DNA from: Lutibacter sp. HS1-25
GTDB taxonomy: Bacteria; Bacteroidota; Bacteroidia; Flavobacteriales; Flavobacteriaceae
Direction of reading: 5' to 3'
Length of the DNA: 64,000 nucleotides
Assembly (NCBI RefSeq): GCF_004121075.1
Contig: NZ_RHLN01000002.1
Location: 62,001 to 126,000, forward strand
Position 1 is the first letter of the stretch, and each line of letters starts with the position of its first letter. Position numbers and translations under genes: made by a program. The notes under the pieces are model-generated. The model was not told the DNA's origin and searched no databases. It saw only the letters and a program-made list of their open reading frames with translations. Shown one piece after another: positions 33,737-52,402 of this stretch.

Positions 33737-33810
33737 TAAAATTATAACAACAATCTAAAGCTCAAAATGATATTAATCATTTTACACAACATTATTTCGT
33801 CATAAATTTA
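33737..33810. promoter_or_regulatory. Bidirectional Fnr-type promoter (CBS gene / phasin-like-aarF operon)
   Basis: The perfect palindrome AAAATGAT-ATTA-ATCATTTT (33764-33783, centre 33773.5) lies exactly 33 bp from the centre of two -7 boxes. TAAATTTA at 33803-33810 points right and TAATTTTA at 33737-33744 points left. One regulator dimer could activate both genes from the class II position (about -41.5). Confidence 0.78.
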
Positions 33811-33834
33811 ATAGAGGTATTTAAATTTTTAATT

Positions 33835-34206
33835 ATGAAAGCCAAGTCAATATTAGAATTACTTACACTAAGCTCTAGTTTATACGTTTTAGCTAGAGAC
33901 ACCGAACTTTTAGAAAAAATTAAAGAATTATCTGAAAAAGGAAAAGATGAAATTGATAAAATAATTTCAGAATCTAAATTAGATGAAAATGGCAATGAAT
34001 TGGAATTTGTAGATAAAATAATTCTTAAAACTCAAGAACTTAAAGACGAATTAGACAAAAAAGTTGAAGAACTGGTTATTAAATTTTATAAAAAAATACA
34101 TGTAGCGCATGTTGATGAAATTAAAGCATTGAATGAAAAGATTGAAAAAGCCGACATGGCTATTGCACTATTAGAAGCTAGATTAAACAAGTTAGACCTC
34201 AAATAA
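33835..34206 (+). CDS. Helical phasin-like protein
   Basis: A 123-residue, wholly helical, charged protein. A short hydrophobic start (ILELLTLSSSLYVLA) is followed by coiled-coil-like segments. The end HVDEIKALNEKIEKADMAIALLEARLNKLD resembles the leucine-zipper-like tail of PhaF or PhaI-type phasins (pattern D-E-I-x-A-L-x-x-K-I). I see no PHA synthase in the window, so granule binding is only one idea. It is first in an operon with the AarF kinase, 1 bp apart, behind the bidirectional Fnr-type promoter. Confidence 0.8.
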   Translation: MKAKSILELLTLSSSLYVLARDTELLEKIKELSEKGKDEIDKIISESKLDENGNELEFVDKIILKTQELKDELDKKVEELVIKFYKKIHVAHVDEIKALNEKIEKADMAIALLEARLNKLDLK

Positions 34207-34207
34207 A

Positions 34208-35911
34208 ATGGGACTTTTAACGGGCATTAGAAATAATTTTAGATCTATCTCTAGATACAATCAAATTTTAAAGGTTTTATTAAAATATGGCTTTGAAGAT
34301 TTGGTTTACTATTTGGATGAAAGCAAGCGTTATAAATTTATTCAAAAGCTAATTCCTAAAACTTCAAAAAAACATGCATTGTTGTATACCAAATGGGCTA
34401 AAATGAGATTGGTTTGCGAAGAATTGGGTCCTACTTTTGTAAAATTCGGACAAATATTAAGCAATAGAGCCGACTTAATACCTTTAGAACTAACGTTTGA
34501 GTTGGAAAAACTTCAGGACAATGTGCCTCCTATGCCTCAAAATGTTGCAAAAGAAATTGTTGAATTAGAACTAAAAGATACTGTTGAAAATTTATTTGCC
34601 TGGTTTGACCCACGCCCTTTTGCCTCTGCTTCTATGGCTCAGGTACATAAAGCAACCTTACATTCGGGCAAACGAATTGTTTTAAAAATACAACGCGCTG
34701 GCATATATGATGTTATTGTTGAAGACATAAAGGTAATGTACAAAATTGCCGAAGTTTTAGAAAATAGAATCCCTTCATTAAAAAGTTTTGACCCTGTTGG
34801 ACTGGTTAAAAATTTTGAATATTCTATTTTAAAAGAACTCGATTTTATTAATGAGTCTATCAATGTAGAACGTTTTTACAACAATTTAAAAAAAGATGAT
34901 ATTACAAACCATTACGCCTACTCACCTAAAGTTTATCACGAATTTACCACCTCAAAAGTGTTGGCTTTAGAGTTTATTTCAGGTATTAAAATTGATAAAT
35001 TAGACAAACTAATTGAAAAAGGTTTTGACACTAAAATAATTGCCCGACGGTTGGCTATATGCTATTACAAACAAATTTTTGAATATGGATTTTTCCATGC
35101 CGATCCTCATCCCGGAAATTTATTGGTACTTCCAAATGGACATATTGCTTATTTAGATTTTGGTATGATGGGCAGTATGTTACCAAGAGATATTTCGGTA
35201 TTTGGAAAATTATTTATTGCCGTTACAAACAAAAATGTGAATGAAATTATAAAAGCACTTCAAAAATTATCGAACAATGTTGTTGTGCCAAATATAAGAG
35301 ATTTAGAATTTGATATTAATGAGTTTGTTGAAAAATATTATGTGAGAACCATTCATAAAAATGAAATGAGCACCATTTTACTTGAACTTAAAGACATTAT
35401 TGTTATTCATGGTTTACAAGTGCCTACCTACTTCTTCCTTTTTGCAAGATCACTTGTAACGCTTGAAGGTGTAATTGAAAAACTAGACCCTGATTTTGAA
35501 CATCTTGAAATCGTTAGTCCGTATTTAACCAAAAGTGTTACAAAAAAATTCAACCCTATAATTATGGGAAAAAAGGTGATAAATTCTATGGTTGAAATAA
35601 CCGATTATATGGAAGATTTTCCTGCTGATTTAAAAAATGCCATCAGAAAAATAAATGCAGGTAAAGTAAAAGTTGACTTAACGCACAAAGGCATAGACCC
35701 TATGGTGCATACGCTTATACGCTTAACTAAACAACTAATTACTGCTTTTATAATGGTAGCTTTAATTATAAGTGCGGCGCTATTTATTATTTATGAAATA
35801 CATCCGCTTTGGCGAAATATTTCTTTAATAGGAATTGTCAGTTTTTTATTAGCCGCAATTTTAGGCTTTAGAATTGTAATTAATATTAGTAAAGGTGATT
35901 ACGATTATTAA
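34208..35911 (+). CDS. AarF/UbiB/ABC1-family atypical kinase
   Basis: A 567-residue member of the UbiB family with C-terminal membrane helices (about 512-533 and 538-558). Family motifs: KxGQ as FVKFGQILSNRADLIP, Ala-rich loop ASASMAQVHKATL, KIQRAG, ExD as ELDFINESINVERF, and the catalytic plus metal loops FHADPHPGNLLVLPNG and YLDFGMMG. UbiB supports quinone biosynthesis. In this menaquinone-type organism the role is more likely quinone or lipid handling under stress, which is inference. It is coupled to the phasin-like gene and probably induced with it. Confidence 0.93.
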   Translation: MGLLTGIRNNFRSISRYNQILKVLLKYGFEDLVYYLDESKRYKFIQKLIPKTSKKHALLYTKWAKMRLVCEELGPTFVKFGQILSNRADLIPLELTFELEKLQDNVPPMPQNVAKEIVELELKDTVENLFAWFDPRPFASASMAQVHKATLHSGKRIVLKIQRAGIYDVIVEDIKVMYKIAEVLENRIPSLKSFDPVGLVKNFEYSILKELDFINESINVERFYNNLKKDDITNHYAYSPKVYHEFTTSKVLALEFISGIKIDKLDKLIEKGFDTKIIARRLAICYYKQIFEYGFFHADPHPGNLLVLPNGHIAYLDFGMMGSMLPRDISVFGKLFIAVTNKNVNEIIKALQKLSNNVVVPNIRDLEFDINEFVEKYYVRTIHKNEMSTILLELKDIIVIHGLQVPTYFFLFARSLVTLEGVIEKLDPDFEHLEIVSPYLTKSVTKKFNPIIMGKKVINSMVEITDYMEDFPADLKNAIRKINAGKVKVDLTHKGIDPMVHTLIRLTKQLITAFIMVALIISAALFIIYEIHPLWRNISLIGIVSFLLAAILGFRIVINISKGDYDY

Positions 35912-35979
35912 TTACAAATGAGGTTGTATAAATAAATGCTGAATGACGTATTTTAAACAACCTCATTATAGTAATTTAC

Positions 35980-36582
35980 CTAGGAATTTGAAAAAGCTTT
36001 TTTGAAATGAGTAAATGCTTCTGAAATTTCGTTTTGAAAATGTTCCAATTTTGTTTCTTCTTTCTTCTTGCTGTATTTCTTTTTCAACTTTTCAATAAAG
36101 GAGTTAAATTCTGAATTCCCTTTTTCAAAAGATTCTTTGGTTTCCTTTTTATCAGTCTTGTATTTTTTTTCTAATATTTCGAGCTGAATTTTAAACTGTT
36201 CAATTTCAATAAGTGTTAGGGCATACATTCTACATAAAGTTTCATTGGTTTTAATTTTAACTTCAATTTCATGTAAGGTTAGCAATAATTGTTTTTTTTG
36301 ATTTTTATACACCTCAATTGTTTCCGCTTTACCCAAGGCCAATTGCACACGAAGTTCATCAAACTTAGCTTTCAATTCCTCAATATTTTCTTTAACCTGA
36401 TTTATTTTAAATTCACTATCGTGAATAAACAAGTTAAATTCTTTTTTAACATCTTCATATTTATCTTTAGCATCAGCTTTACCTAAAGCAACTTTTACTT
36501 GAAATTCTTCTAAGTTAACAGCCGTTTTTCTAAGTGCTTCAATAACTTTATCAATAAATGGAAGGTCGTGTTTAGTTTTCAT
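35980..36582 (-). CDS. Long coiled-coil protein, unknown
   Basis: A 200-residue protein, Lys/Glu-rich, nearly all helical coiled coil. The units EEFQVKVALGKADAKDKYEDVKKEF and DELRVQLALGKAETIEVYKNQKKQL are near repeats, so a 40-60 residue module (KVALGKA-x-x-K/E-x-Y) occurs at least twice. I chose the ATG at 36582 (MKTKHDLPF) because the regulon -7 box lies at 36606-36613 and would fall inside a longer ORF. No signal peptide. The function is unknown; a cytosolic scaffold is likely. Confidence 0.8.
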   Translation of the reverse strand: MKTKHDLPFIDKVIEALRKTAVNLEEFQVKVALGKADAKDKYEDVKKEFNLFIHDSEFKINQVKENIEELKAKFDELRVQLALGKAETIEVYKNQKKQLLLTLHEIEVKIKTNETLCRMYALTLIEIEQFKIQLEILEKKYKTDKKETKESFEKGNSEFNSFIEKLKKKYSKKKEETKLEHFQNEISEAFTHFKKAFSNS

Positions 36583-36605
36583 GATATTTTGATTTTTGGT
36601 TAAAC

Positions 36606-36649
36606 TAAAGTTCAATACAATTGTTTAAAAACACAATGAGGAATATCAA
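36606..36649 (-). promoter_or_regulatory. Fnr-type promoter of the coiled-coil gene
   Basis: On the minus strand TTGAT-ATTC-CTCAT (36636-36649, centre 36642.5) is 33 bp from a degenerate -7 box GAACTTTA (36606-36613). The site is good and the box is weak. Confidence 0.6.
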
Positions 36650-36779
36650 TTACACACAAGAATTATATCATTTAAAAAGTTATTTTTCAATAGATTTTAC
36701 TTTTATATAAATAAAAATATCGAGGTAAAAACCTCGATATCTTTATTATTTCATACAAAATTTCCCCATTTTAAATTCC

Positions 36780-37220
36780 TTAAGAAATTTCAATAACTTT
36801 AGGTTTCATTTTTTTGGATTCTTCTTTTTTAGCAAGGCTAAATTTTAAAATTCCATTGTCGTATTTTGCTTTGATTTTTTCGTCAGCAACATTTTCAGGC
36901 AATTGCAAAGATCTTTCAAAAGCATTGTAGCTAAACTCTTTTCGAGTATAATCTTCTTCTTTTTCTTCTTTAGATATTTCCTTTTTTGCTGAAATATTTA
37001 AACAACCGTTATCAATGGTAACTTCAAAATCTTTTTTACTAAATCCAGGAGCTGCCAATTCAATTTCAAATTCATCCTTTTTTTCTTTGATATTCAAAGC
37101 TGGTTCATTCATTTTTTTTAACCAAACCCTATCGTTAAGTAGGCTATTTGCGTTAAAATCTAAAAAATCTGGTGCTAACAAATTTTCTAACGGACTTTTT
37201 CTAAATTTTACGAGTGACAT
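36780..37220 (-). CDS. Small heat-shock protein (Hsp20/alpha-crystallin)
   Basis: A 146-residue holdase chaperone. The alpha-crystallin domain spans about residues 40-135: PALNIKEKKDEFEIELAAPGFSKKDFEVTIDNGCLNISAKKE, then YTRKEFSYNAFERSLQLPENV, and the NGILKFSLAKK strand, with the I-x-I-like tail PKVIEIS. The N-terminus is short, with no signal. It has its own Fnr-type promoter with a perfect TAAATTTG box, which ties the chaperone to the island regulon rather than to heat shock alone. Confidence 0.95.
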   Translation of the reverse strand: MSLVKFRKSPLENLLAPDFLDFNANSLLNDRVWLKKMNEPALNIKEKKDEFEIELAAPGFSKKDFEVTIDNGCLNISAKKEISKEEKEEDYTRKEFSYNAFERSLQLPENVADEKIKAKYDNGILKFSLAKKEESKKMKPKVIEIS

Positions 37221-37259
37221 AATTTTATGGTTTTAAATTAAACAATCTAATTAATTACT

Positions 37260-37303
37260 CAAATTTATCTCTAATAACAATCCCACAAAATGATTTCCCT
37301 CAA
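37260..37303 (-). promoter_or_regulatory. Fnr-type promoter of hsp20
   Basis: On the minus strand TTGAG-GGAA-ATCAT (37290-37303, centre 37296.5) lies exactly 33 bp from TAAATTTG (37260-37267), a perfect TAnnTTTG box. The start codon at 37220 is 40 bp from the box. Confidence 0.78.
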
Positions 37304-37342
37304 TTTCAGACAATTAACTAACATTTTTAACATAATATTCAT

Positions 37343-37373
37343 AAAAAAAAGGAAGTAAATACTTCCTTTTTTT
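37343..37373. terminator. Bidirectional terminator upstream of hsp20
   Basis: Arms GGAAGT / ACTTCC around AAAT with A7/T7 flanks. It ends the candidate RNA on the minus strand and insulates the hsp20 promoter. Confidence 0.88.
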
Positions 37374-37519
37374 AGAGAGTTTAAGCTATTATTTAAAAAC
37401 TAAACAACTTCTTATGTTATTTTTAAATTAATAAAACTGAAATTAGTTTGTGTTTATAAAACATTTAAACCCTTCTTTTTTAACCTTCATGTTTTTTAAC
37501 AACAAAGACCTATTTTTTA

Positions 37520-37547
37520 GAAACAGGAAGCCTAAACTTCCTGTTTC
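37520..37547. repeat. Hairpin shared by both candidate RNAs, copy 1
   Basis: Perfect 11-bp arms GAAACAGGAAG / CTTCCTGTTTC around a 6-nt loop (TTTAGG on the minus strand). The copy at 51698-51725 has the same arms and loop TCTAGG on the plus strand, so the two agree in the orientation of their proposed transcripts. Confidence 0.9.
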
Positions 37548-37704
37548 ATCCTGAAAAGACTTTGGTAACTTATTGATATTGAAACAATCTTTCAAAAAAC
37601 TTTTATTTCTAAAAATTAGAATAATAAACCATAACTTCCATCAAAAAGTATCTAAACCCTTTCAGTATAATTTAACTTGTTTATAAGAACTTTAATTAAT
37701 ACAA

Positions 37705-37770
37705 CAAATTTATGCTCTAAATATTTTTTACTATATGATTACCATCATTTTAAGATATGATTGTTATCAC
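37705..37770 (-). promoter_or_regulatory. Orphan promoter with two tandem Fnr-type sites
   Basis: Minus-strand box TAAATTTG at 37705-37712 is 33 bp from site ATGAT-GGTA-ATCAT (37735-37748, centre 37741.5). A second site GTGAT-AACA-ATCAT (37757-37770) lies 22 bp further, two helical turns. There is no ORF downstream before the terminator at 37343. Confidence 0.7.
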
Positions 37771-37791
37771 AAAAGGCTTTTCTTTTTCATA

Positions 37792-37842
37792 AAATAAAAT
37801 AGGCTATGTAAAAAGTTCACTTTTCAGACAGCCTATTTTTAA
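37792..37842 (-). terminator. Terminator of dodecin
   Basis: Arms AAAATAGGCT (37796-37805) and AGCCTATTTT (37830-37839), 48 bp past the dodecin stop. T-rich on the minus-strand exit. Confidence 0.75.
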
Positions 37843-37887
37843 ATTATATTTTAAAATTCGCCACCAAAATAAAGTATATACACCTAT

Positions 37888-38094
37888 TTATCCATCTAAA
37901 ATTCCAAAACAAACTTTGGTATTAACTCTGTATTCTGTAATCATATTATCATTCACTTTTACCTGCATATTTTCTATATAAACAGATTTGATGTTTTTAA
38001 CTGATTTTGATGCTTCATTTACTACATTTTGTACTGCATCCTCAAAACTAACGGTAGAATTTCCTAAAACTTCTATAACTTTTAAAACTGACAT
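37888..38094 (-). CDS. Dodecin family flavin-binding protein
   Basis: A 68-residue dodecin, forming a 12-mer shell that stores flavin (or CoA in some species). The family pattern is clear: VLKVIEVLGNSTVSFEDAVQNVVNEASKSVKNIKSVYIENMQVKVNDNMITEYRVNTKVCFGI. In archaeal and many bacterial dodecins a Trp stacks the flavin. No Trp is present here, so ligand binding may differ. Its Fnr-type promoter makes it part of the island regulon, and it has its own terminator. Confidence 0.95.
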   Translation of the reverse strand: MSVLKVIEVLGNSTVSFEDAVQNVVNEASKSVKNIKSVYIENMQVKVNDNMITEYRVNTKVCFGILDG

Positions 38095-38123
38095 AATTTG
38101 TTGTTTTTATGATTAATATAATG

Positions 38124-38167
38124 TGAAATTAGGAACGAATCTTGAGTTTCCAAATGATTTTCATCAA
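38124..38167 (-). promoter_or_regulatory. Fnr-type promoter of dodecin
   Basis: Minus-strand site TTGAT-GAAA-ATCAT (38154-38167, centre 38160.5) is 33 bp from TAATTTCA (38124-38131). The start codon is 30 bp from the box. Confidence 0.75.
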
Positions 38168-38204
38168 TTTAAAAACCTCTTAAAAATCACTAACAAACTG
38201 AATT

Positions 38205-39374
38205 TCAATACCTAAAAACCGCATTTAACAACCTTCCTTTTACAGGCATTTCGTCATGGTTTAGCACATAAACTTTACCTTGGTTTAAAAAAGTTTGTAC
38301 AGCAGCTAAGTTAATAAGCGAACTATTTTGAATTTCTTTTTCACTTCCTAAGGTTAGCTTACCATTTTCTTTATTAAACACTCCAAATTCATCCAGGTCT
38401 TTTTCAACAAATAAAGTTTCAATTTTTCCTGAAATAGCAGCAGGGATAATTTCATTTAACTGGTATGAAATTTTAGGAGTGTGGTATAGTTCCTGAAATT
38501 TAGTTAGTTGTTGTTTTTTTGTTGCTGAAAAATACGGTTTTATCAACTTAAAAGAAACTTCGTGCAGCTTGGTTTTATTAATAAATTCAGGGTCTCCTTT
38601 ACAATTTTCTCCATAAAGATTTGGATAGGTATTTATTTGTTTATAGGTGTTAAATACATTATTTGTGCTTGCAATAACCAAAGGTGCTTTGTTGTTTTTA
38701 ATAGATTTATTCACCGCTTTGTCTATAGCCCTAAAAAAAGTAATGATTTCTTTTTGTTCGTCATCAATACCTTCACCATGTCCGTGAAAAGATCCAGCAT
38801 TAAATGCCGCCTTACCACTTCTAAATTGTAACATTTTTTGTTTAAAATCAAATCCAACAGCTTTTTCTAAGGTATCGGGTGCTAAATCTTTAATATGAAG
38901 ATTGGTTAATCCGTATTTTGAAGCTTCGTATAATTTAACATAATCCTGACTTAGTTCTAATAAAAAATACATTTCATCATCTTGAAATAAAGGAAATAAA
39001 GGTGTTAAATAAAAGGAACTTGCAACATGTGTTTTGGCTTCAAATTTAATAGGTAGTGCGTAATATTGCAATCCATTTTTGTCTAAAAAAATAGCCAAAC
39101 CATCAGCCGAATTTCTCCACAACTCAGCATTAAAAATTAGTTTTTCAATGGGTTTTAAATAAGTGATTATTTCAGCATCACTTAGTTGGTATTCTTGCAA
39201 TGTTTTGTGCACATTTTTAATACAGTTTTTCAATGTTTCTTGTGCCAAATGCTCGTTTTGTTCTTTACCCGATTTGTACAAAGGAAGATAAATTGAAACA
39301 CAATGCATATCGTGATTTGCTGCCAGCACTTCAAAAGTTTTTAAAGGTAGCGGATAAAATTTAGAAGTATACAT
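38205..39374 (-). CDS. Bacterial archaeo-eukaryotic release factor (baeRF, family 3-like)
   Basis: A 389-residue protein with the three-part layout of the baeRF proteins, which resemble eRF1, Pelota and the ribosome hibernation factor Balon. It begins PLPLKTFEVLAANHDMHCVSIYLPLYKSGKEQNE and has FLDKNGLQYYALP, then DYVKLYEASKYGLTNL (the domain 2 strand) and SFHGHGEGIDDEQKEIITFFRAIDKAV, where eRF-like proteins carry GGQ-type loops. The last domain holds PAAISGKIETLFVE. I chose ATG 39374 because the 34 residues before it are a translated leader. It follows the usp gene by 98 bp, probably as one transcript. Confidence 0.87.
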   Translation of the reverse strand: MYTSKFYPLPLKTFEVLAANHDMHCVSIYLPLYKSGKEQNEHLAQETLKNCIKNVHKTLQEYQLSDAEIITYLKPIEKLIFNAELWRNSADGLAIFLDKNGLQYYALPIKFEAKTHVASSFYLTPLFPLFQDDEMYFLLELSQDYVKLYEASKYGLTNLHIKDLAPDTLEKAVGFDFKQKMLQFRSGKAAFNAGSFHGHGEGIDDEQKEIITFFRAIDKAVNKSIKNNKAPLVIASTNNVFNTYKQINTYPNLYGENCKGDPEFINKTKLHEVSFKLIKPYFSATKKQQLTKFQELYHTPKISYQLNEIIPAAISGKIETLFVEKDLDEFGVFNKENGKLTLGSEKEIQNSSLINLAAVQTFLNQGKVYVLNHDEMPVKGRLLNAVFRY

Positions 39375-39472
39375 AATTAGTTTTTTTAAGTTAATAATAG
39401 AAATTAACATACAAGTTTTCCCTTTTAAAAATTCATAATTCCACCAAAAAAAACCAATCAAAATATTAAATA

Positions 39473-40327: not shown

Positions 40328-40362
40328 ATTTATTTTATTTAAAATCAACTAAATAAGCAACT

Positions 40363-40406
40363 TAAAAGTAGTGACCTATGTTAAATAAATAAATGACATC
40401 TCTCAA
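40363..40406 (-). promoter_or_regulatory. Fnr-type promoter of the usp-baeRF operon
   Basis: Minus-strand site TTGAG-AGAT-GTCAT (40393-40406, centre 40399.5) is 33 bp from TACTTTTA (40363-40370). It is separate from the macA site, whose centre is 31 bp away. Confidence 0.7.
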
Positions 40407-40423
40407 TTTACAGCTATTTAGAG

Positions 40424-40467
40424 ATGAGTATCATCATTTCATTTTTTAAGGTTCCTTTCTAATTTTA
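40424..40467 (+). promoter_or_regulatory. Fnr-type promoter of the macA-like operon
   Basis: Site ATGAG-TATC-ATCAT (40424-40437, centre 40430.5) is 33 bp from TAATTTTA (40460-40467). The start codon is 32 bp past the box. Confidence 0.7.
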
Positions 40468-40498
40468 ACCATCAAAAAAGTTTTAAAATCTTTTAATT

Positions 40499-43685: not shown

Positions 43686-43744
43686 CTATTTCAATTGCGC
43701 TATAAACAAAAATACTACAAACCAAATACATCTCATAAAACAAA

Positions 43745-43788
43745 CTGACCAATCTCATTGTCAACAAATTAGCAACCAACTAATTTAG
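43745..43788 (+). promoter_or_regulatory. Degenerate Fnr-type promoter of the PepSY-like gene
   Basis: CTGAC-CAAT-CTCAT (43745-43758, centre 43751.5) is 33 bp from TAATTTAG (43781-43788). The site is degenerate, but the spacing fits the others exactly. Confidence 0.5.
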
Positions 43789-43841: not shown

Positions 43842-44351
43842 ATGAAAAAATTAATCTTTGGTTTAATAATTCTTGGATTAACCATCCATACTTACGCTCA
43901 GGAAATTAAAACAATCGAATTATCTGAAGTCGTAATTTCTGCCACAAATTATAAATATTTAAACAAAACAGGTCTTGAAAATGCGTCTATACCAGTTGCT
44001 TTATTAGAACAAAAAGTGGCAAGCTATGATATTGCAAGTTCCGAATTTTATGATGATGAGTATGATTCTTATATTATCTCATTTTATATTCCTGAAGGAA
44101 GTATACTTGCTACTTATGATAAAGAAGGTACTATTTTACGAACTGCTGAAAGATTTAAAGATGTAACGCTTCCAATTGAAGTTCGCAACAGCATAGCAAA
44201 ACAATATCCTAATTGGAGTTTTGAAAAAGATTTATATTTGGTTAACTACTACGACAAGTCTGGAAATATCACCAAAAAATATAAAATTACTTTGATTAAT
44301 GGTGACAAACGTATTAAAGTTAAATGTGATGCTGAAGGAAACATACTTTAG
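43842..44351 (+). CDS. Exported PepSY-like protein
   Basis: A 169-residue exported protein with signal peptide 1-19 (ending HTYAQ). The mature part has two PepSY-like repeats: a segment ending SILATYDKEGTILRTAERFKDVTLP (about 70-105) and VRNSIAKQYPNWSFEKDLYLVNYYDKSGNITKKYKITLINGDKRIKVKCDAEGNIL (about 112-169). The beginning ELSEVVISAT resembles the start of TonB-dependent receptors. Role unknown; PepSY-like proteins inhibit or modulate envelope enzymes in some systems. Its own promoter and terminator make it a monocistronic member of the regulon. Confidence 0.83.
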   Translation: MKKLIFGLIILGLTIHTYAQEIKTIELSEVVISATNYKYLNKTGLENASIPVALLEQKVASYDIASSEFYDDEYDSYIISFYIPEGSILATYDKEGTILRTAERFKDVTLPIEVRNSIAKQYPNWSFEKDLYLVNYYDKSGNITKKYKITLINGDKRIKVKCDAEGNIL

Positions 44352-44403: not shown

Positions 44404-44428
44404 TGTTTAACTGCTTTATACATTTAAA

Positions 44429-44472
44429 TTGATGGATATCATTTTTATACCAAATTAACATTTCTAAATTAG
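44429..44472 (+). promoter_or_regulatory. Fnr-type promoter of the mla operon
   Basis: TTGAT-GGAT-ATCAT (44429-44442, centre 44435.5) lies 33 bp from TAAATTAG (44465-44472). The box is 29 bp before ATG 44501 and only 5 bp before the GTG at 44477. That decides the mlaE start in favour of the ATG. Confidence 0.78.
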
Positions 44473-44500
44473 ATAAGTGAATCTTGACAAAAACTACTTT

Positions 44501-45283
44501 ATGGCAATTTCACTTAAAATATCAAAAAACATTCAATCATTTTTACTTGAAATAGGTGAACTAACTTATTTTGCAAAACGCTTTTTTAAAGAAGCTTTTA
44601 CAAGACCTTTTGAATTTAAGGAATTGCTTCGTCAATGTTTCAATATGGGAAATCGGTCTTTGCTATTGGTTGGTGTAACAGGATTTATTTTAGGACTTGT
44701 TTTTACACTACAATCTAGACCTACTTTAATGGAATTTGGTGCAGCATCCTGGATGCCATCAATGGTTAGTATTTCAATAGTACGCGAAATTGGCCCAGTA
44801 ATTATAGCGCTAATTTGTGCTGGTAAAATAAGTTCTGGCATAGGTGCCGAGTTGGGTTCTATGCGTGTAACAGAGCAAATTGATGCTATGGAAGTTTCTG
44901 GTACAAATCCGTTTAAATATTTAGTTGTAACACGTATTATGGCTGCAACTTTAATGTTGCCATTGCTTATTATTTTTGGTGATGCAATTGCTTTGGTTGG
45001 CTCAGCTCTTATTGAAAATTTAAAAGGAGATGTTTCGTTTTTACTGTATTTCAACAAAGTAATTGAAGCTTTAAAATTTTCAGACGTAATACCTGCAACT
45101 ACAAAATCTTTCCTTTTCGGATTTGCAATTGGACTGGTAGGTTGTTTTAAGGGATATAATTGTAAAAAAGGAACAGTTGGCGTTGGTGAAGCTTCAAACT
45201 CTGCAGTAGTATATGCTTCTATGTTGTTGTTTATTATCGATTTTATAGCGGTATTTATTTCTGATATTTTCTTTGAAATTTAG
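44501..45283 (+). CDS. mlaE: MlaE-type lipid transporter permease
   Basis: A 260-residue integral membrane permease of the MCE phospholipid transporter. Family blocks: FVLGLVFTLQSRPTLMEFGA-like helix, VREIGPVIIALICAGKISSGIGAELGSMRVTEQIDAMEVSG, and CFKGYNCKKGTVGVGEASNSAVVYASM. Five to six helices. I chose ATG 44501, because the upstream GTG lies too close to the -7 box. It is followed 1 bp later by mlaF. It works with mlaF and mlaD to move phospholipid between membranes. The regulon link suggests lipid remodelling under low oxygen or stress. Confidence 0.94.
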   Translation: MAISLKISKNIQSFLLEIGELTYFAKRFFKEAFTRPFEFKELLRQCFNMGNRSLLLVGVTGFILGLVFTLQSRPTLMEFGAASWMPSMVSISIVREIGPVIIALICAGKISSGIGAELGSMRVTEQIDAMEVSGTNPFKYLVVTRIMAATLMLPLLIIFGDAIALVGSALIENLKGDVSFLLYFNKVIEALKFSDVIPATTKSFLFGFAIGLVGCFKGYNCKKGTVGVGEASNSAVVYASMLLFIIDFIAVFISDIFFEI

Positions 45284-45284
45284 T

Positions 45285-46025
45285 ATGAAAACAACTAAAA
45301 ACATAAAGCCCGTTTTAAAAATTAAAGACCTTAAAAAAAGCTTTGGAGACAATCATGTGCTTAATGGTTTTTCAATGGAATTGTTTGAAGGTGAAAATTT
45401 AGTAATCATGGGAAAATCAGGATCCGGAAAATCGGTCATGATAAAATGCTTGGTTGGACTTATGCAGCCCGACAGCGGTTTTATTGAAATTGAAGGACGA
45501 AATTTAACAGATTTAAAACAACAAGAACTCAACATTTTAAGAACCGAAATTGGCTTTCTTTTTCAGGGAAGTGCATTGTACGACTCTATGACTGTGCGCG
45601 AAAATTTAGAATTTCCTTTGAGAAAACAAAAGATCAATGCAATAGATTTAGAAAACTTGGTTGTTGAAACATTAGACAGTGTAGGACTTAAATCGGCAAT
45701 AGATTTAATGCCCGAAGAACTTTCTGGAGGAATGAAAAGAAGAGTTGCCCTAGCAAGAGCATTAATTTTAAAACCAAAAATTATTATTTATGATGAACCC
45801 ACAACAGGTTTAGATCCAATAACTGCCAAAGAAATTATTGAATTGATGAAAGATATTCAACTAAAATACAGAACCTCATCACTTATAATAACCCATGATA
45901 TAGATTGTGCCAGGGTAATTTCAAACAGAATGATTTTATTAATTGATGGTATTAATTATGCTGAAGGCACTTTTAACGAACTCTTGGCAAATAAGGATAA
46001 AAAAATTCAGGCATTTTTTAAATAG
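45285..46025 (+). CDS. mlaF: MlaF-type ATPase
   Basis: A 246-residue ATPase with Walker A GKSGSGKS, the Q-loop FLFQGSALYDSMTVRENLEF, signature LSGGMKRRVALARAL, Walker B IIIYDEPTTGLDP, and the switch His in ITHDIDCA. The G-S-A-L-Y/F-D-S-M/L-T-V segment is diagnostic for MlaF. I chose ATG 45285, just after the mlaE stop. A TTG 12 bp earlier would overlap it. It drives the MlaE permease. Confidence 0.95.
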   Translation: MKTTKNIKPVLKIKDLKKSFGDNHVLNGFSMELFEGENLVIMGKSGSGKSVMIKCLVGLMQPDSGFIEIEGRNLTDLKQQELNILRTEIGFLFQGSALYDSMTVRENLEFPLRKQKINAIDLENLVVETLDSVGLKSAIDLMPEELSGGMKRRVALARALILKPKIIIYDEPTTGLDPITAKEIIELMKDIQLKYRTSSLIITHDIDCARVISNRMILLIDGINYAEGTFNELLANKDKKIQAFFK

Positions 46026-46033
46026 ATATTCTC

Positions 46034-47020
46034 ATGGAAAAGTCAAACTCACAAAAAATAAGATTGGGCATATTTGTTATTATTAGCACATTGCTATTAA
46101 TTTCTTTGCTTTATTTTATAGGAAACAAACAAAATCTTTTTGGAAAAACCTTTAGAATAAGTGCCGTTTTTAACAATGTTAATGGTTTAATATTGGGCAA
46201 TAACGTTCGCTATTCTGGTATTAATGTTGGAACCGTTAAAAAAATAAACATGATTAACGACACAACTATTTGTGTTGATATGGTTATTGAAGATAAATTT
46301 TTGAAACACCTTAAAAAGAATGCCATTGCAGCTATTGGATCAGATGGTTTGGTAGGAAGTATGGTTATTAATATTGTGCCAAGTAAAGACAGTTCTTTCA
46401 CTTTAATTCCGGGAGATACCATCAAATCTTTTTCTAAAATTAGTACAAATGATATGCTTTCAACTTTAAATACAACCAATGAAAATGCCGCAATCCTTAC
46501 TTCCGACTTGCTAAAAATAACCACAGCAATCAACCAAGGAAAAGGCACGTTGGGCTTGTTAATAAATGATACAGAAATGGCTTCAAATTTAAAAAACACC
46601 ACCTTAAATTTAAAAAATGCTAGTGCAAATGCGTCCATTGCAATAAACGATATAAAAAATATGATTGCAGCCATTAATTACGATGAAAGCTTTGCGGCAG
46701 TATTGCTAAGCGATTCCATTTCAGCAAATCAACTTAAAGAAATTATAACAAATTTAGAAAAAGCAAGTAGTAAAATCGATTCATTAGTTTCAAATATTAA
46801 TGATGTTGTAGCATTGGTAAAAAACGGTAATGGTACTATAAATTATATGTTAAATGATACAACCTTGGTTGAAAATATTGATACCACTATGAAAAATATT
46901 AAAGAAGGAAGTGTATTGCTAAACGAAAATTTAGAGGCGCTTAAACATAATTTTTTAACCAAAGGATATTTTAAAAAATTGGAAAAACAAAAAGCTAAAG
47001 AAGAAAAACAAAAAGAATAG
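46034..47020 (+). CDS. mlaD: MlaD-type MCE substrate-binding protein
   Basis: A 328-residue protein anchored by one N-terminal helix (about 11-31), then the MCE domain (about 38-115: FRISAVFNNVNGLILGNNVRYSGINVGTVKKINM). A long helical and beta C-terminal region repeats NxxLxN-type units (STNDMLSTLNTTNENAAILTSDL, GKGTLGLLINDTEMASNL, GNGTINYMLNDTTLVENI), as in MCE proteins with tail helices. The tail is Lys-rich (EKQKAKEEKQKE). It lacks partners of the MlaC or MlaB type in the window. Confidence 0.92.
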   Translation: MEKSNSQKIRLGIFVIISTLLLISLLYFIGNKQNLFGKTFRISAVFNNVNGLILGNNVRYSGINVGTVKKINMINDTTICVDMVIEDKFLKHLKKNAIAAIGSDGLVGSMVINIVPSKDSSFTLIPGDTIKSFSKISTNDMLSTLNTTNENAAILTSDLLKITTAINQGKGTLGLLINDTEMASNLKNTTLNLKNASANASIAINDIKNMIAAINYDESFAAVLLSDSISANQLKEIITNLEKASSKIDSLVSNINDVVALVKNGNGTINYMLNDTTLVENIDTTMKNIKEGSVLLNENLEALKHNFLTKGYFKKLEKQKAKEEKQKE

Positions 47021-47071
47021 TTTAAAATTTTAATATCCAGCATAATTTTTCAATTAATCCAAAAACATTGA

Positions 47072-47575: not shown

Positions 47576-47834
47576 TTTAAAAAAGTTTAAAATTGATTAC
47601 AGATATTTTAATTATTACCAATAAAAAACTTCAAAAGCATTTTTTTATTTTATAAAATAATACATACAATAAACCCTGTAAAGTATTGTATTTAAAATAA
47701 TTATTCCCTAAATTTATAAGAAATTAATATTCATAAATACTTGATTAAGTAAGAACTATTAATTCTAACTTCCTGTTTTAAGCCCTTTGAAATTAATTTT
47801 ATTTTTATAGTTAAACATTGGTAAATAATTATTT

Positions 47835-49076
47835 ATGTTTCATCAAAATAAAAATATTTTCGACATTTTATTTAAGGCTATGCCTGAAGGTGTAATTGTG
47901 GTTAATAATACCCAAATTATTGTTGCTGCAAACCCTTCTGCCGAAAAAATGTTTGGATATAACACCAATGAACTTAACAACTTACATCTTTCAGTTTTAA
48001 TTCCTAAAAGATATGCCGTAAATCATAACCGTTATTTTAATACTTTCATTAAAAATAACAATGTTCGAAAAGTTGATCACTCTTCCAATTTATATGGGAT
48101 AACAAAAAACAACAAAGAATTCCCTTTAGAAATTGGTTTAAATCCATTTACGGTGAATAATGAAATTTATGTAATTGCTTTAATTATTGATATTACAACA
48201 CGAAAGGAAGCCGAAAAAAAAATTGAAAATTTAAATAGAGATTTAGATAAAAAAATTTCAGAAAGAACTGCTCAACTAAACAATACAATTAAGCAGTTAA
48301 AAGAATTAAATATTAATTATAAAAAAGAAATTTCCCAAAGACTGGAAGCTGAGCATAAAATTAAAATTGCACTAAAAAAAGAAATGGAATTGAACGAGTT
48401 AAAAACAAAATTTTTATCGCTTGTTTCCCATGAATTTAAAACTCCTTTAAGTGGTATTTTAACATCTGCAATATTACTTGGCAAGTATCATTCAAACCAA
48501 CATCAAGAAAAAAGGCAAAAACACATCGAAACAATAATTGGTAAGGTAAACTATCTTAACAATATTTTAAACGATTTTTTATCAATTGAACGTTTGGACT
48601 CTAACAATGTAAACTATAAGTTTAACACTTTTAATTTAAGCAAAATTGTTAATGAAGTAGTTTACAATGCCAATATGCTTTTAAAAAATGGCCAAAAAAT
48701 AAACACACCAAATAACACTGATGAATTTGTACTTTACCAAGATGAAAAATTTTTAGAACTGGCATTGTCTAATGTAATTTACAATGCCATAAAATATTCT
48801 CCACAAGATGCTACCATTGATTTAGAGATCTATAAAAAACAACAAAACATTGTATTTAAAGTTACAGATCAAGGGATTGGTATACCTGAAAAAGAACAGA
48901 AATTTATATTTAAACGTTATTTTAGAGCTGAAAATGTTTTAAATGAACAAGGTACTGGAATAGGATTAAATATTGTAAAATCACATTTAGAGAATTTAGG
49001 CGGAAACATTTATTTTACCAGTGAAGAAAATAAAGGTTCTGTTTTTACATTTGAATTACCCATAAATCACAAATAA
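47835..49076 (+). CDS. PAS sensor histidine kinase (FixL-like PAS)
   Basis: A 413-residue soluble kinase. PAS domain at about 8-125, coiled coil at about 130-185, HisKA with H199 in SLVSHEFKTPLSG, and ATPase with LSNVIYNAIKYSP, DQGIGIP and GTGIGLNIVKSHLENLGG. In the PAS domain, LIPKRYAVNHNRYFNTF aligns with FixL's LMPEPDRSRHDSYI, so H64 takes the place of the heme-ligating His. The distal Arg of FixL is Ser or Asn here, and many heme-free PAS share an H-R-x-Y motif. Its stop overlaps the REC-Crp gene by 1 bp, so the two form a pair. Confidence 0.93.
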   Translation: MFHQNKNIFDILFKAMPEGVIVVNNTQIIVAANPSAEKMFGYNTNELNNLHLSVLIPKRYAVNHNRYFNTFIKNNNVRKVDHSSNLYGITKNNKEFPLEIGLNPFTVNNEIYVIALIIDITTRKEAEKKIENLNRDLDKKISERTAQLNNTIKQLKELNINYKKEISQRLEAEHKIKIALKKEMELNELKTKFLSLVSHEFKTPLSGILTSAILLGKYHSNQHQEKRQKHIETIIGKVNYLNNILNDFLSIERLDSNNVNYKFNTFNLSKIVNEVVYNANMLLKNGQKINTPNNTDEFVLYQDEKFLELALSNVIYNAIKYSPQDATIDLEIYKKQQNIVFKVTDQGIGIPEKEQKFIFKRYFRAENVLNEQGTGIGLNIVKSHLENLGGNIYFTSEENKGSVFTFELPINHK

Positions 49077-50134
49077 TGAAAAAAATATTATTAATCGAAG
49101 ATGACAAAGTGGTTCGTGAAAATACTGCTGAACTTTTAGAATTGGCAAACTATCATGTTGTAACAGCAAACAATGGCAAAACCGGATTGATTGAAGCAAA
49201 AAAACACATGCCTGATCTTATTATTTGTGATATTATGATGCCTGAGTTAAACGGTTTTGGAGTACTACAAATACTTTCTAAAGATATTATTACCAAACAC
49301 ATTCCTTTTATTTTTTTATCAGCAAAAACAGAACATAAAGATGTTAGAAAAGGCATGAATTTAGGTGCCGATGATTATATTACAAAACCTTTTGATGAGT
49401 CTGAATTGTTTAGCGCTATTGAAAGTCGATTGGCCAAGGTTGCCATACTTAAAGAAAATTTAGAAATACAATCCGCAGGAGAAATTAAAAAAGATTTTGA
49501 TGAACCCATTAAAAATTTAGAAAACCTTAAAACCTATTTTAATCAAAATGTTGAAGGATTTTCATACCAAACAAATGAAACTATATACCAACAAGGCGAC
49601 AACTCCAATTATGTATTTTTAATCAAACAAGGCGTTGTAAAAACATATAAAATTGATGAGCAGGGAAAAGAGCTAATTACTGCTCTGCACAAAGAAAATG
49701 ATTTTTTTGGCTTTACCTCCTTTTCGCAAAATATTCCTTATCAAGAATTTGCAACAGCCATAGAAAACACGCAGGTTTTTAGGTTATCTAAACGAGATTT
49801 AAAACAAATCTTAGCCGAAAACCCAAATGTAACCCTTGAATTGATCGATTTTCTTACAGACAATGTTTCTGATTTTAAAAATCAATTATTACAAATGGCT
49901 TACAGCTCTGTTCGTAAAAAAACAGCCAATACAATTCTTCAGTTTACTGAAAAAATGAAAAAACGCCCCAATGAAAATATTAAAATTTCGAGAAGCGATT
50001 TAGCCAGTATTGCAGGTATTGCTACTGAAACTTTTATAAGAACTTTATCTGATTTTAAAAAAGATGGAATTATAGATTTTAAAGGAAGTAATATTGAAAT
50101 TATTGACCTAAACAAGCTAAAAAAAATGAATTAA
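49076..50134 (+). CDS. Response regulator fused to Crp/Fnr-type transcription factor
   Basis: A 352-residue regulator. The receiver (residues 1-122) has the phospho-acceptor D52 (IICDIMMPELNG), the switch Ser in FIFLSAKTEH and Lys in DYITKPFDES. A cNMP-binding-fold domain follows (about 150-260: GDNSNYVFLIKQGVVKTY, FFGFTSFSQNIPYQEFATAIENTQVFRLS). A winged helix-turn-helix follows (about 285-345). The recognition helix ATETFIRTL places E318 and R322 where Fnr has E209 and R213, fitting a TTGAT-type site. It has no cysteine, so no iron-sulfur sensing. It is the likely regulator of the surrounding promoters. Confidence 0.93.
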   Translation: MKKILLIEDDKVVRENTAELLELANYHVVTANNGKTGLIEAKKHMPDLIICDIMMPELNGFGVLQILSKDIITKHIPFIFLSAKTEHKDVRKGMNLGADDYITKPFDESELFSAIESRLAKVAILKENLEIQSAGEIKKDFDEPIKNLENLKTYFNQNVEGFSYQTNETIYQQGDNSNYVFLIKQGVVKTYKIDEQGKELITALHKENDFFGFTSFSQNIPYQEFATAIENTQVFRLSKRDLKQILAENPNVTLELIDFLTDNVSDFKNQLLQMAYSSVRKKTANTILQFTEKMKKRPNENIKISRSDLASIAGIATETFIRTLSDFKKDGIIDFKGSNIEIIDLNKLKKMN

Positions 50135-50153
50135 TACTAGCTAATTTCTTAAA

Positions 50154-50197
50154 TTGATTTATATCATTTTGCCTTTGAACATCACATATTAAATTAG
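50154..50197 (+). promoter_or_regulatory. Fnr-type promoter of the second usp operon
   Basis: TTGAT-TTAT-ATCAT (50154-50167, centre 50160.5) is 33 bp from TAAATTAG (50190-50197). The start codon is 27 bp past the box. Confidence 0.78.
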
Positions 50198-50223
50198 TTA
50201 ATAATTTTAATCCAAATGTTCAA

Positions 50224-51072
50224 ATGAAGAATATTTTACTTCCTACCGACTTTTCAGAAAATTCTTGGAACGCAATAAAATATGCTTTGGCATTTTTTAA
50301 AGATACTCCTTGTGATTTTTATTTACTGCACGTTACATTAATAAGTAATTATACAAGCGGCGAATTTACAATATATCCTACAACTGAAGTTTTGGATAAA
50401 ACTTTACTAAAAAAAGCTAAAACAGATTTGAAAAAATTTTTAGATAAAGTAAAAAAGCACCCGCTTAGTGCTACTCATAAATTCTTTGATATAAATAGTT
50501 ATAATTATTTTGTTGATGCCATAAGAGAACAAATCAAAGAAAATTTTATTGACTTAATTGTTATGGGTACAAAGGGCGCTTCAGGTTTAAACGAAATTAT
50601 ACTTGGCAGCAACACAGGAGATTTAATTACACAAGTAAAATGCCCTGTACTTGTGGTTCCTGAAAAAGCTGTTTTTAGTACACCTAAAGAAATAGCTTTT
50701 CCTACAGATTATAATATTTTTTATCCAACTGCTATTTTAAACAGTATTGCCGAAATTGCTAAAATGTTTAGATCGGCTATCCGTATTTTACACGTAGTAA
50801 GAAAAGATGAAGAACTAACCAGTTTTCAACAAGATAATAAAAACTATTTACACGATTTTTTTATAAACAGAAAACATAGTTTTCATAGAATTACAAATAA
50901 AAAAATTGAAAACGGCATACAATGTTTTGTCGAAAGCAGAAACATCAATATGATTGTAATGGTTGCAAAAAACATCAACCTTTTTCAACGTATTTTATTT
51001 AGACCAACCGTTGAAGAAATTAGCTATCATATTGAAATACCTTTTTTAGTAGTACATGAACAAAACAATTAA
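50224..51072 (+). CDS. Tandem universal stress protein (UspA family), second copy
   Basis: A 282-residue protein with two Usp domains. Domain 1 starts NILLPTDFSENSWNAIKYALAF and has the ATP-binding motif GTKGASGLNEIILGSN and CPVLVVP. Domain 2 (EIAFPTDYNIFYPTAILNSIAEI) has lost the glycine motif, like the paralogue at 39473. It lies directly behind the regulator gene, with its own Fnr-type promoter. The small membrane protein at 51076 follows 4 bp later. Confidence 0.93.
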   Translation: MKNILLPTDFSENSWNAIKYALAFFKDTPCDFYLLHVTLISNYTSGEFTIYPTTEVLDKTLLKKAKTDLKKFLDKVKKHPLSATHKFFDINSYNYFVDAIREQIKENFIDLIVMGTKGASGLNEIILGSNTGDLITQVKCPVLVVPEKAVFSTPKEIAFPTDYNIFYPTAILNSIAEIAKMFRSAIRILHVVRKDEELTSFQQDNKNYLHDFFINRKHSFHRITNKKIENGIQCFVESRNINMIVMVAKNINLFQRILFRPTVEEISYHIEIPFLVVHEQNN

Positions 51073-51075
51073 ATT

Positions 51076-51465
51076 ATGGAAAACATTTCAATCTTTTTAT
51101 CGAAATTTTGGGGCTGGTATTTAATCATATTTTTTACAATATTAACTTTTAACCCCAAAAGAATATTACAACTTTTAAAAGACCTTAAAGATCAAAAATT
51201 TGTAATCTTAATCTCGTTTATTGCTATAATTGTAGGACTTTTAAATATTTTATCACACAATGTTTGGGAAAATGATTGGCGTTTGATAATTACACTTATT
51301 GGCTGGAGCGCTCTTTTTATTGGCTTATCTTTATTTATTTTTCCAATTAAAACTTCAAAATTTTTAGAATACATCAACATAAAATTTGTACAACTTATTT
51401 ATATGCTGCTTTTTATAATAGGTGTATTTTTATTAAGTAAAGCCTATGGCTTTATATACAATTAA
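51076..51465 (+). CDS. Four-helix membrane protein in the usp operon
   Basis: A 129-residue inner-membrane protein with four helices: FWGWYLIIFFTILTF, KFVILISFIAIIVGLLNIL, WRLIITLIGWSALFIGLSLFIFPI and FVQLIYMLLFIIGVFLLSKAYGF. The WRLIITLIGW motif and helix layout recall a widespread unnamed family of small integral membrane proteins. It is coupled to usp by a 4-bp gap. Role unknown. Confidence 0.82.
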   Translation: MENISIFLSKFWGWYLIIFFTILTFNPKRILQLLKDLKDQKFVILISFIAIIVGLLNILSHNVWENDWRLIITLIGWSALFIGLSLFIFPIKTSKFLEYINIKFVQLIYMLLFIIGVFLLSKAYGFIYN

Positions 51466-51501
51466 AACAGGTCAAAATTATGACATCAATCATTAGCTCA
51501 A

Positions 51502-51545
51502 TTGACTCAAGTCATTTAAATACTAAAATTTAGCAACTACATTTA
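51502..51545 (+). promoter_or_regulatory. Fnr-type promoter of candidate RNA 2
   Basis: TTGAC-TCAA-GTCAT (51502-51515, centre 51508.5; a perfect TGAC/GTCA palindrome) is 33 bp from TACATTTA (51538-51545). No annotated gene follows on this strand before the hairpin at 51698. Confidence 0.68.
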
Positions 51546-51604
51546 CACTATCAATTTAAAGTTCTTTAATTTAAATAAGATAAAACCAGCATAAAGAGGG
51601 TGAT

Positions 51605-51643
51605 ATGTCTAAGTTTAAGAAATTATTTTTAGGTTTATTTTAG
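51605..51643 (+). CDS. 12-codon ORF inside candidate RNA 2
   Basis: ATG to TAG encodes MSKFKKLFLGLF, a short basic-hydrophobic peptide. It is preceded by AAGAGGG (51594-51600), a Shine-Dalgarno-like element 4 nt before the ATG, which is rare in this window. CCCTCTT at 51688-51694 is a perfect 7-base complement and could mask the site. It may be a leader peptide, a toxin-like peptide or chance. Confidence 0.35.
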   Translation: MSKFKKLFLGLF

Positions 51644-51697
51644 CAGTAAAATATATTTAAAAACAAAATTAAACTAAAACAAAAACCCCTCTTAACG

Positions 51698-51725
51698 AAA
51701 CAGGAAGTCTAGGCTTCCTGTTTCT
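51698..51725. repeat. Hairpin shared by both candidate RNAs, copy 2
   Basis: The arms GAAACAGGAAG / CTTCCTGTTTC are identical to 37520-37547, loop TCTAGG. It lies 15 bp past the DUF2267 stop, so it could also end that gene on the other strand. Confidence 0.9.
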
Positions 51726-51739
51726 ATTTTAAACATAGT

Positions 51740-52183
51740 TTAAATTAAATATTCTTCAAAAATTAATGATTTCAATTCTTTTGGAAGCTCAGTTCTTATA
51801 TCATTTAACTCTCCAAACGACACGTATTTTCGCAATGCTAAAAAAGTTATTTTAATATACTTTGTTGTAATTTCATCCGATTCAAAATCATGTACTGCTG
51901 TATTGCCATCATACCTGTTTATCAAATCAATAAACTCAATCAAGGTTTTAATTTTTTGTTTTTTATGTCCAGACCACCCGTTTACATAAACTGCTTTTAA
52001 AAACATTGGTAATTGAGCTATTAATTGTAAAGATTCTTCGGTTGAAATTACCTCTCTTAATCCGTGTAAAACGGACGATAAAATACGACCTGCTTTGTCT
52101 TTATCTGTAATATTTAATTTTTCAGCATACACTTTCATAAAAGAGTTTGCCTCTACTGCAAATTGATTAAAATTTAGTGCCAT
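51740..52183 (-). CDS. DUF2267 family protein
   Basis: A 147-residue, all-helical cytosolic protein of the DUF2267 family: FAVEANSFMKVYAEKLNITDKDKAGRILSSVLHGLREVISTEESLQLIAQLPMFLKAVYVNGW, where the A-x-R-x-L-x-x-V-L-x-x-L-R and LPxxLKxxYxxGW segments are diagnostic. DUF2267 genes often sit with Usp, Hsp20 and CBS genes in stress clusters, as here. No biochemical role is known to me. The promoter at 52275-52318 places it in the regulon. Confidence 0.9.
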   Translation of the reverse strand: MALNFNQFAVEANSFMKVYAEKLNITDKDKAGRILSSVLHGLREVISTEESLQLIAQLPMFLKAVYVNGWSGHKKQKIKTLIEFIDLINRYDGNTAVHDFESDEITTKYIKITFLALRKYVSFGELNDIRTELPKELKSLIFEEYLI

Positions 52184-52274
52184 GATATTATATTTTTAAA
52201 TTAAAATTGATAAATATCCCATTTCTAAAAACTTGAAATCACTTGATTATTTAAACCATTTTTATTTGATTTTA

Positions 52275-52318
52275 TAAAGCTATTGATTGATGGTTATTTG
52301 CAAAATGATTTTGCTCAT
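52275..52318 (-). promoter_or_regulatory. Fnr-type promoter of the DUF2267 gene
   Basis: Minus-strand site ATGAG-CAAA-ATCAT (52305-52318, centre 52311.5) is 33 bp from TAGCTTTA (52275-52282). The leader would be about 85 nt. Confidence 0.68.
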
Positions 52319-52388
52319 TATTCCGTAATTCATCATTATAAAAAACAATAAAAAAATAAATTTTCATTAAAAATAAACACCTAATCAA

Positions 52389-52402
52389 TTGATATTAATC
52401 AT
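52389..52402 (+). promoter_or_regulatory. Fnr-type site of the helical paralogue genes
   Basis: TTGAT-ATTA-ATCAT (centre 52395.5), the best consensus match in the set after 33764. Near +33 only a weak box (CTTAATTG, 52424-52431) is seen, so the -7 element is unclear here. Confidence 0.65.

Follow-up and report, generated by a model that had tools for sequence, protein, structure and literature searches.

Does one regulator govern the stress genes crowded into positions 33737 to 52402 of the 64,000-nucleotide stretch of Lutibacter sp. HS1-25 analysed here (contig NZ_RHLN01000002.1; hereafter the window)? An earlier reading of the same letters (the original prediction) had proposed that a single Fnr/Crp-type class II promoter design heads nearly every transcription unit of this island and makes it a regulon. 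The spacing of the promoter elements, their conservation and their clustering support that proposal, and the most likely interpretation of these sequences is a real, conserved regulon run by a two-component controller encoded at 49076, in which a receiver is fused to an FNR-type half. Flavobacteriaceae are important degraders in marine and freshwater habitats. Our literature search found no FNR/FixK-type low-oxygen regulon for the family, nor any study of this regulon or of a receiver-Crp fusion; the closest match assigns, in the part available to us, a MalR-like carbon role to a Flavobacteriales Crp/Fnr homologue (PMC8510549).

A common promoter design

Re-reading the window sequence, we found all 13 palindromes of the original prediction at their claimed centres. 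It had placed a box 33 bp from every palindrome except the last; a strict TAnnTT box lies at exactly 33 bp (+33) from 11 of the 13, and two have a weak box, namely 36642.5 (GAACTTTA) and 52395.5 (TTAATTGC). A box-blind scan for a TGA-N6-TCA core with at least nine of the ten letters of AA.TGA......TCA.TT (a consensus taken from the 13 sites themselves) returned 16 palindromes in the window: the same 13, and 3298.5, 12307.5 and 52630.5, none of which has a box at +33. Counted in both directions, 12 TA..TT boxes lie at +33 on 11 palindromes, 33773.5 being boxed on each side; every other offset between 15 and 70 has three boxes at most. Shuffled sequence did not reproduce this density: 200 dinucleotide shuffles averaged 2.65 palindromes (maximum 8, against 16 observed), and palindromes paired with a box numbered 0.1 on average (maximum 2; the window has 11). 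Together with the reversed sequences and the other genera described below, the shuffles rule out chance or composition as the source of the sites.

The class II position of Crp and Fnr is -41.5. Since the TAnnTTTG box of Flavobacterium psychrophilum occupies -12 to -5, according to the portion of PMC9723704 available to us, a spacing of 33 bp would place the palindromes at -41.5, in agreement with the class II promoters originally proposed; the starts themselves are predicted here, 18-88 nt upstream of the start codons. For the coiled-coil gene an ATG at offset 19 fits better, the listed TTG start lying upstream of the predicted transcription start.

The original prediction had confined the design to the island, and this part did not hold. 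A scan of the window with a site matrix revealed a plus-strand site of equal strength outside it, at 17754.5 (TAATGATAATTGTCATTG, box TACTTTGG), which heads an exopolysaccharide-type run of hybrid kinase, REC, PgaC-like glycosyltransferase and YaiO-type barrel genes. The exact pattern TGAYNNNNRTCANTTN{20}TANNTT has 11 matches in the whole genome (G000; 164 contigs, 4.18 Mb), six in the island and five elsewhere, and none when run backwards as a control. An island-only motif is thus rejected. A sequence model built from 15 of the window's sites gave 18 matches at E<=0.036 in the 4.18 Mb, of which 15 lie in the window and are the model's own training sites, so that the decisive tests are those in other genomes.

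Sites accompany the regulator in other genomes

Among the best 80 of 532 confirmed stretches, regulator orthologues occur at 70-74% identity in Lutibacter records and Flavobacteriaceae bins, and additional ones in Kordia, Aureibaculum, Aquimarina, Polaribacter, Algibacter and others. Because these 80 loci (69 of other genera, 11 of the Lutibacter group) were picked for carrying the regulator, they show that sites accompany it and not how sites spread over genomes. In the 69 other-genus loci, 153 of 208 box-blind palindromes have TA..TT at +33 (156 boxes over both directions), against 1-15 per other offset from 15 to 74; in the 11 Lutibacter-group loci the proportion is 45 of 70. The window matrix at score 16 yielded 189 sites in the other-genus loci, with at least one in 59 of the 69, and 240 sites in all 80, versus none in reversed sequences in either set. 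A site lies within 300 bp past the regulator stop in 56 of the 69 loci at score 12 and in 41 at score 16.

Scanning genome-wide with the site model R1, we found the sites clustered at the regulator: among the matches listed for 51 regulator-bearing genomes of genera other than Lutibacter, 51 of 103 fall within 20 kb of the regulator gene, where a uniform spread would give 1.5. R1 matches are present in 59 of 71 genomes of the family with the regulator versus 33 of 77 without it (p=5.6e-7, G000 left out of the comparison). Within Lutibacter, the 22 genomes that have an orthologue show a median of 27 matches, and the 14 that lack one a median of 13 (p=2.9e-5).

A receiver fused to an FNR-type half

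The 49076 protein belongs to the Crp/Fnr superfamily by its matches to PF00027 (7.5e-20) and PF13545 (5.2e-14), and the best PDB matches of its DNA-binding half are FNR-type regulators. In 13 orthologues the recognition-helix residues E318 and R322 are invariant, as are D9, D10, D52, S82 and K104, which identify a response-regulator receiver. The four cysteines of the FNR oxygen-sensor class are missing: the sole conserved cysteine in the 13 orthologues is Cys51, and the only other column with at least three cysteines is residue 30, both within the receiver. We therefore reject Fe-S sensing by the regulator. The protein is FNR-type in its DNA-binding half but, with a receiver and no Fe-S cysteines, no Fnr as a sensor. 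The cAMP-pocket residues that would mark a CRP were compared by eye, and the alignment is best with FNR-type proteins. Nor does it carry a DNA-binding domain of the LuxR/NarL type of DosR, having HTH_Crp instead. A structure prediction of the regulator was of low confidence (mean pLDDT 64.1, pTM 0.40) and was not used for any conclusion. The clustering of sites near its homologues and its domain make-up support this protein as the likely binder, as originally suggested.

In all 80 loci a homologue of the window kinase adjoins the regulator and precedes it; in the window the first base of the regulator gene overlaps the kinase stop. The PAS domain of the kinase matches FixL and DosP. Taken jointly, we put the probability of a two-component FNR-type regulon at roughly 0.77. 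In the mechanism that we propose, the PAS kinase (47835) would phosphorylate Asp52 in the receiver of the 49076 protein, whose FNR-type half would bind AAnTGA-N6-TCAnTT centred at -41.5. The bound regulator would then activate RNA polymerase as a class II activator; we infer activation and not repression, and likewise the binding by this protein and its phosphorylation switch. Its output would be a quiescence or low-respiration set (Usp, Hsp20, CBS, phasin-like, dodecin, Mla, MacAB and DUF2267) and a family of RNAs, to which relatives would add cbb3 oxidase, HemN and a hibernation factor. Sites, spacing, likely controller and target set can all be read from sequence.

Other candidate controllers

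Could another protein of the same class own the sites? Six Crp-type helix-turn-helix proteins exceed the cut-off in the Lutibacter sp. HS1-25 genome. A standalone FNR-type protein is encoded about 3 kb from ccoN (L161), and its recognition helix resembles that of the receiver-Crp (REC-Crp) protein (TATESAIR versus IATETFIR). Similar palindromes also stand at ccoS promoters, with the box at +32 in four of five Lutibacter genomes; in the fifth (G007), as in three of four other genera, it is at +33. If the sites belonged to such a standalone protein, REC-Crp would be a passenger of the island. We regard this as improbable: homologues of the standalone protein, 80-88% identical, occur in all nine Lutibacter genomes asked, six of them lacking a REC-Crp orthologue, yet at E<=0.1 R1 matches only two and four times in G007 and G036, which lack the orthologue, versus 23 and 17 times in G032 and G013, which have it. 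The clustering of listed other-genus matches at the REC-Crp gene argues against it as well. The +32 sites at ccoS suggest, from their spacing, a sister regulon of the standalone protein; the genome's own ccoS/ccoN have the box at +32 and do not follow the +33 design. Upstream of ccoS in L226, L227, L228 and L230 the palindromes are near-perfect and of the TATGATAATTATCATAT type, with the box at +32 and not +33.

A joint regulon with overlapping input, in which the standalone protein, the REC-Crp protein and a 49% identical REC-Crp paralogue (C5:48759-49778, L049) share the sites, is somewhat less remote and still unlikely. The six Crp-type proteins and the similar helices would fit it, whereas the 20-kb neighbourhood of the paralogue contains nothing above score 16 and the ccoS spacing differs in four of the five Lutibacter genomes.

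Returning to the fused two-component regulon as the preferred reading, several points weigh against it. R1 matches occur in those 33 of 77 genomes scored as regulator-less, a group that is not clean, since one of its members (G161) has a 41%-identical regulator in an island with eight sites of score at least 16. Of the 14 Lutibacter genomes without an orthologue, six are less than 90% complete. E-values are rough, genomes outside the family showing 0 to 24 weak matches at E<=0.5, and genome-wide counts are lower bounds because only the best first-pass candidates were scored (150 of 12,116 in the own genome, 41 per genome in the wider scan). Given the similar recognition helices and the ccoS palindromes (+32/+33), the regulons may overlap. 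In the window, moreover, the kinase gene has no site ahead of it.

The kinase itself adds to these points. In FixL, heme binding and sensing involve a proximal histidine and a distal arginine. A heme-like His64 is kept in 74 of 78 aligned kinases and the FixL-distal-Arg position is arginine in 63 of 79; the window kinase has His64 and, at the distal position, Ser84, and the L. flavus kinase has tyrosine at 64. Ser84 and this Tyr64 speak against heme oxygen sensing in Lutibacter, where it appears doubtful; in other genera it may apply. We do not class the Lutibacter kinase as a FixL-type heme PAS kinase.

Two further observations concern the same genes. A diverged regulator (41%) stands with a 1076-aa kinase in a site-rich island at L207:7657-11987, in a genome first scored as regulator-less. 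Autoregulation of the kinase operon was considered and set aside for the window, which has no site ahead of the kinase; among relatives, sites ahead of it are found in L217 (score 15.3) and L211 (score 20.9).

Target genes and the signal

Sites in the window head the CBS pair, phasin-like plus AarF, the coiled coil, Hsp20, dodecin, Usp plus baeRF, MacAB, a 169-aa protein, Mla, a second Usp, DUF2267 and the helical pair. The 169-aa protein, labelled PepSY-like in the original prediction, has no Pfam match. A scan of 95 loci of relatives, some of them pieces of one island, found site-headed operons with Usp (65), CcoS with CcoN/O (13), HemN (13, as first gene in three), pyridoxamine-oxidase-like protein (9), Hsp20 (9), phosphoribosyltransferase (7), FixG-like CcoG (7), hydrolase (6) and hibernation factor (3). 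One site in G151 stands ahead of an operon encoding a 129-aa-type membrane protein, PEP synthase and PfkB; that island also contains a cation ATPase, by placement only and not as a gene shown to be site-headed. The DosR-like gene set noted originally is borne out by Usp, Hsp20 and CBS in the window and by more in relatives.

We lean towards low oxygen or a respiratory slow-down as the signal, and this is the weakest link of our reading. The cbb3-oxidase, HemN, Hsp20, Usp and hibernation-factor operons strengthen the low-oxygen or quiescence regulon of the original prediction and do not prove it; the signal itself is still what we infer. A general slow-down, stationary phase, or envelope or osmotic stress in place of oxygen is a less favoured possibility that we take seriously, because many window targets are general stress genes and the heme signature is eroded in the Lutibacter kinase. 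It fits less well with the cbb3 genes, CcoG and HemN in the site-headed operons of relatives, or with the 2-oxoacid:ferredoxin oxidoreductase and NrfD/MtrC-like cytochrome run behind weaker sites of the own genome. On balance, what these genes probably represent is a survival programme common to related genera, for low oxygen or slow growth.

As a separate observation, the weaker sites just mentioned are on the own contig, and the second run behind them is a multiheme-type cytochrome/Fe-S/NrfD run (MtrC-like).

A family of structured RNAs

The original prediction had placed two RNAs under the sites, and so we find; it had missed that both are copies of one structured family. The RNAs, about 180 nt long and headed by sites 51508.5 and 37741.5, have a common 5' motif and an identical terminal hairpin. 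No Rfam 15 family exceeds its gathering score in window positions 33000-53500 or in the array of locus L082, and the family offers a defined entry to RNA control in Flavobacteriaceae. An RNA model, R2, detected it in 15 of 24 Lutibacter genomes searched: all 14 with a regulator orthologue versus one of 10 without (p=7.6e-6), where seven of the 14 had supplied R2 rows and the other seven alone give 7/7 versus 1/10 (p=4e-4). In the sole orthologue-less genome with the RNA (G006), it starts 385 bases from a contig end. Outside the build set R2 matched Psychroflexus (E 4e-10) and Algibacter (6e-7), as well as two loci of Aquimarina at weak E-values of 0.01-0.02, and the first unit of each of these matches has a palindrome upstream. 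Several Lutibacter-group records hold tandem arrays, with six units in L082 and five in L083, L086 and L097. These cross-genus matches and arrays are lower bounds, since R2 with default filters missed members in the window, L085, L098 and L210; turning the filters off recovers those in the window, L085 and L098.

In a set of 23 units, which come from six loci, the 42 pairs of the structure are formed in 95.9% of cases. Two-sided changes fill 37 cells, versus 12.6 in shuffles (0/500 as high) and 0-13 in slid versions, a shuffle control that overstates because the pairing was derived from the same unit set (A6), whose rows are related repeats; further pair types are less striking (13/500 shuffles as high). 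The conservation of the hairpin comes partly from selection, as the A5 units were picked by the terminal hairpin and the A6 units by R2, which was built on A5. One loop is GNRA in 23/23 units, another is GNRA in 16/23, and the terminal loop is UNCG in 13/23. Some units contain short reading frames; covariation and tetraloop families favour a structured RNA over peptide coding.

The RNA promoters are distinguished by a second palindrome exactly 22 bp upstream, present in 16/16 Lutibacter RNA promoters tested versus 6/97 other sites, each locus being counted once even where named records repeat it. The 16 were picked by the terminal-hairpin pattern, which left RNA promoters lacking this hairpin in the group of 97. 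The 22-bp partner is absent from five other-genus RNA promoters and from L041:12833.5, none of which is among the 16. Could these RNAs act in bulk? Tentatively, and at slightly less than even odds in our judgement, the regulator may drive these arrays of up to six units of about 180 nt, in which every unit has a terminal hairpin and a helix with a GNRA loop, as the RNA branch of a dormancy programme in flavobacteria. The RNAs would, for instance, titrate an RNA-binding protein or silence many mRNAs once respiration stops.

Map of the island

The positions of sites, genes and RNAs are collected in Table 1.

Table 1. Sites, genes and RNA units in the window, with RNA arrays and weaker-site genes at other loci (locus label before the colon).
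Feature	Position	Strand	Remarks
Site 17754.5, box TACTTTGG	17746..17791	+	outside the island; heads gene run 17884-26860
Divergent site 33773.5, box on each side	33737..33810		CBS pair leftward, phasin-like + AarF rightward; predicted transcription starts 33732 (-) and 33815 (+)
Site 36642.5, weak box GAACTTTA	36606..36651	-	heads coiled-coil gene
Site 37296.5, box TAAATTTG	37260..37305	-	heads Hsp20
Second, weaker RNA unit	37342..37516	-	abuts copy 1; 51.5 bits, model positions 46-225, filters off
Structured RNA copy 1, ~185 nt	37517..37701	-	terminal hairpin GAAACAGGAAG-loop-CTTCCTGTTTC
Tandem palindromes 37763.5 + 37741.5, 22 bp apart, box TAAATTTG	37705..37772	-	heads RNA copy 1
Site 38160.5	38124..38169	-	heads dodecin gene 37888-38094
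Two divergent sites	40363..40467		40399.5 (-), Usp1 + baeRF; 40430.5 (+), MacAB-like genes
Site 43751.5	43743..43788	+	heads 169-aa gene at 43842
Site 44435.5	44427..44472	+	heads MlaE-MlaF-MlaD-type genes 44477-47020; MlaD by Pfam, MlaE and MlaF presumed
PAS histidine kinase	47835..49076	+	PAS, HisKA, HATPase_c
Response regulator	49076..50134	+	REC + cNMP-binding-type domain + HTH_Crp
Site 50160.5	50152..50197	+	directly 3' of regulator; heads Usp2 + 129-aa membrane protein
Tandem palindromes 51486.5 + 51508.5, 22 bp apart, box TACATTTA	51478..51545	+	heads RNA copy 2
Structured RNA copy 2, ~180 nt	51549..51727	+	terminal hairpin as in copy 1
Site 52311.5, box TAGCTTTA	52275..52320	-	heads DUF2267 gene
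Site 52395.5, weak box TTAATTGC	52387..52432	+	heads helical pair 52455-53400
RNA arrays behind Usp2 operon	L082:12579-13727, L083:4142-5108, L086:3891-4844, L097:12656-13619		
Genes behind weaker sites on the own contig	L200:1704-6788 and L201:4943-7608		

Comparison with known systems

The gene content recalls DosRST of Mycobacterium tuberculosis, with Usp, Hsp20 and CBS in the window and PfkB, cation ATPase, pyridoxamine-oxidase-like protein, phosphoribosyltransferase, hydrolase and hibernation factor in the islands of relatives; the gene-by-gene correspondence is mostly a presumed one. DosR is a LuxR/NarL-type regulator, whereas the DNA-binding half here is of the Crp/Fnr type. As far as the part of PMC5309233 available to us describes it, the DosR regulon comprises about 50 genes in blocks, PfkB included. 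The lxa stress locus of Burkholderia cenocepacia, from another phylum, is activated by low oxygen and carries six Usp genes, and the accessible portion of its description mentions no REC-Crp fusion (PMC9104464). In Myxococcus xanthus the two-component system NmpRSTU governs cbb3 oxidase and HemN genes, according to the sections of PMC11841059 available to us; its regulator is NtrC-like and its sensor a protoglobin. For the RNAs, Bacteroides FopS provides a case of multicopy paralogous RNAs in Bacteroidota, about 65-70 nt long and at multiple loci, in the excerpt of PMC11697453 available; those here are units of about 180 nt in tandem.

The FixL-FixJ-FixK cascade of rhizobia differs from the present system in that receiver and FNR half are here fused, in another phylum, with a hypothetical heme in the PAS domain. 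The likeness lies in a PAS kinase, a receiver and a protein of the FNR class that works through TTGAT-type sites, with cbb3 oxidase and HemN among the targets. By this analogy, the 49076 protein would unite the roles of FixJ and FixK in one polypeptide.

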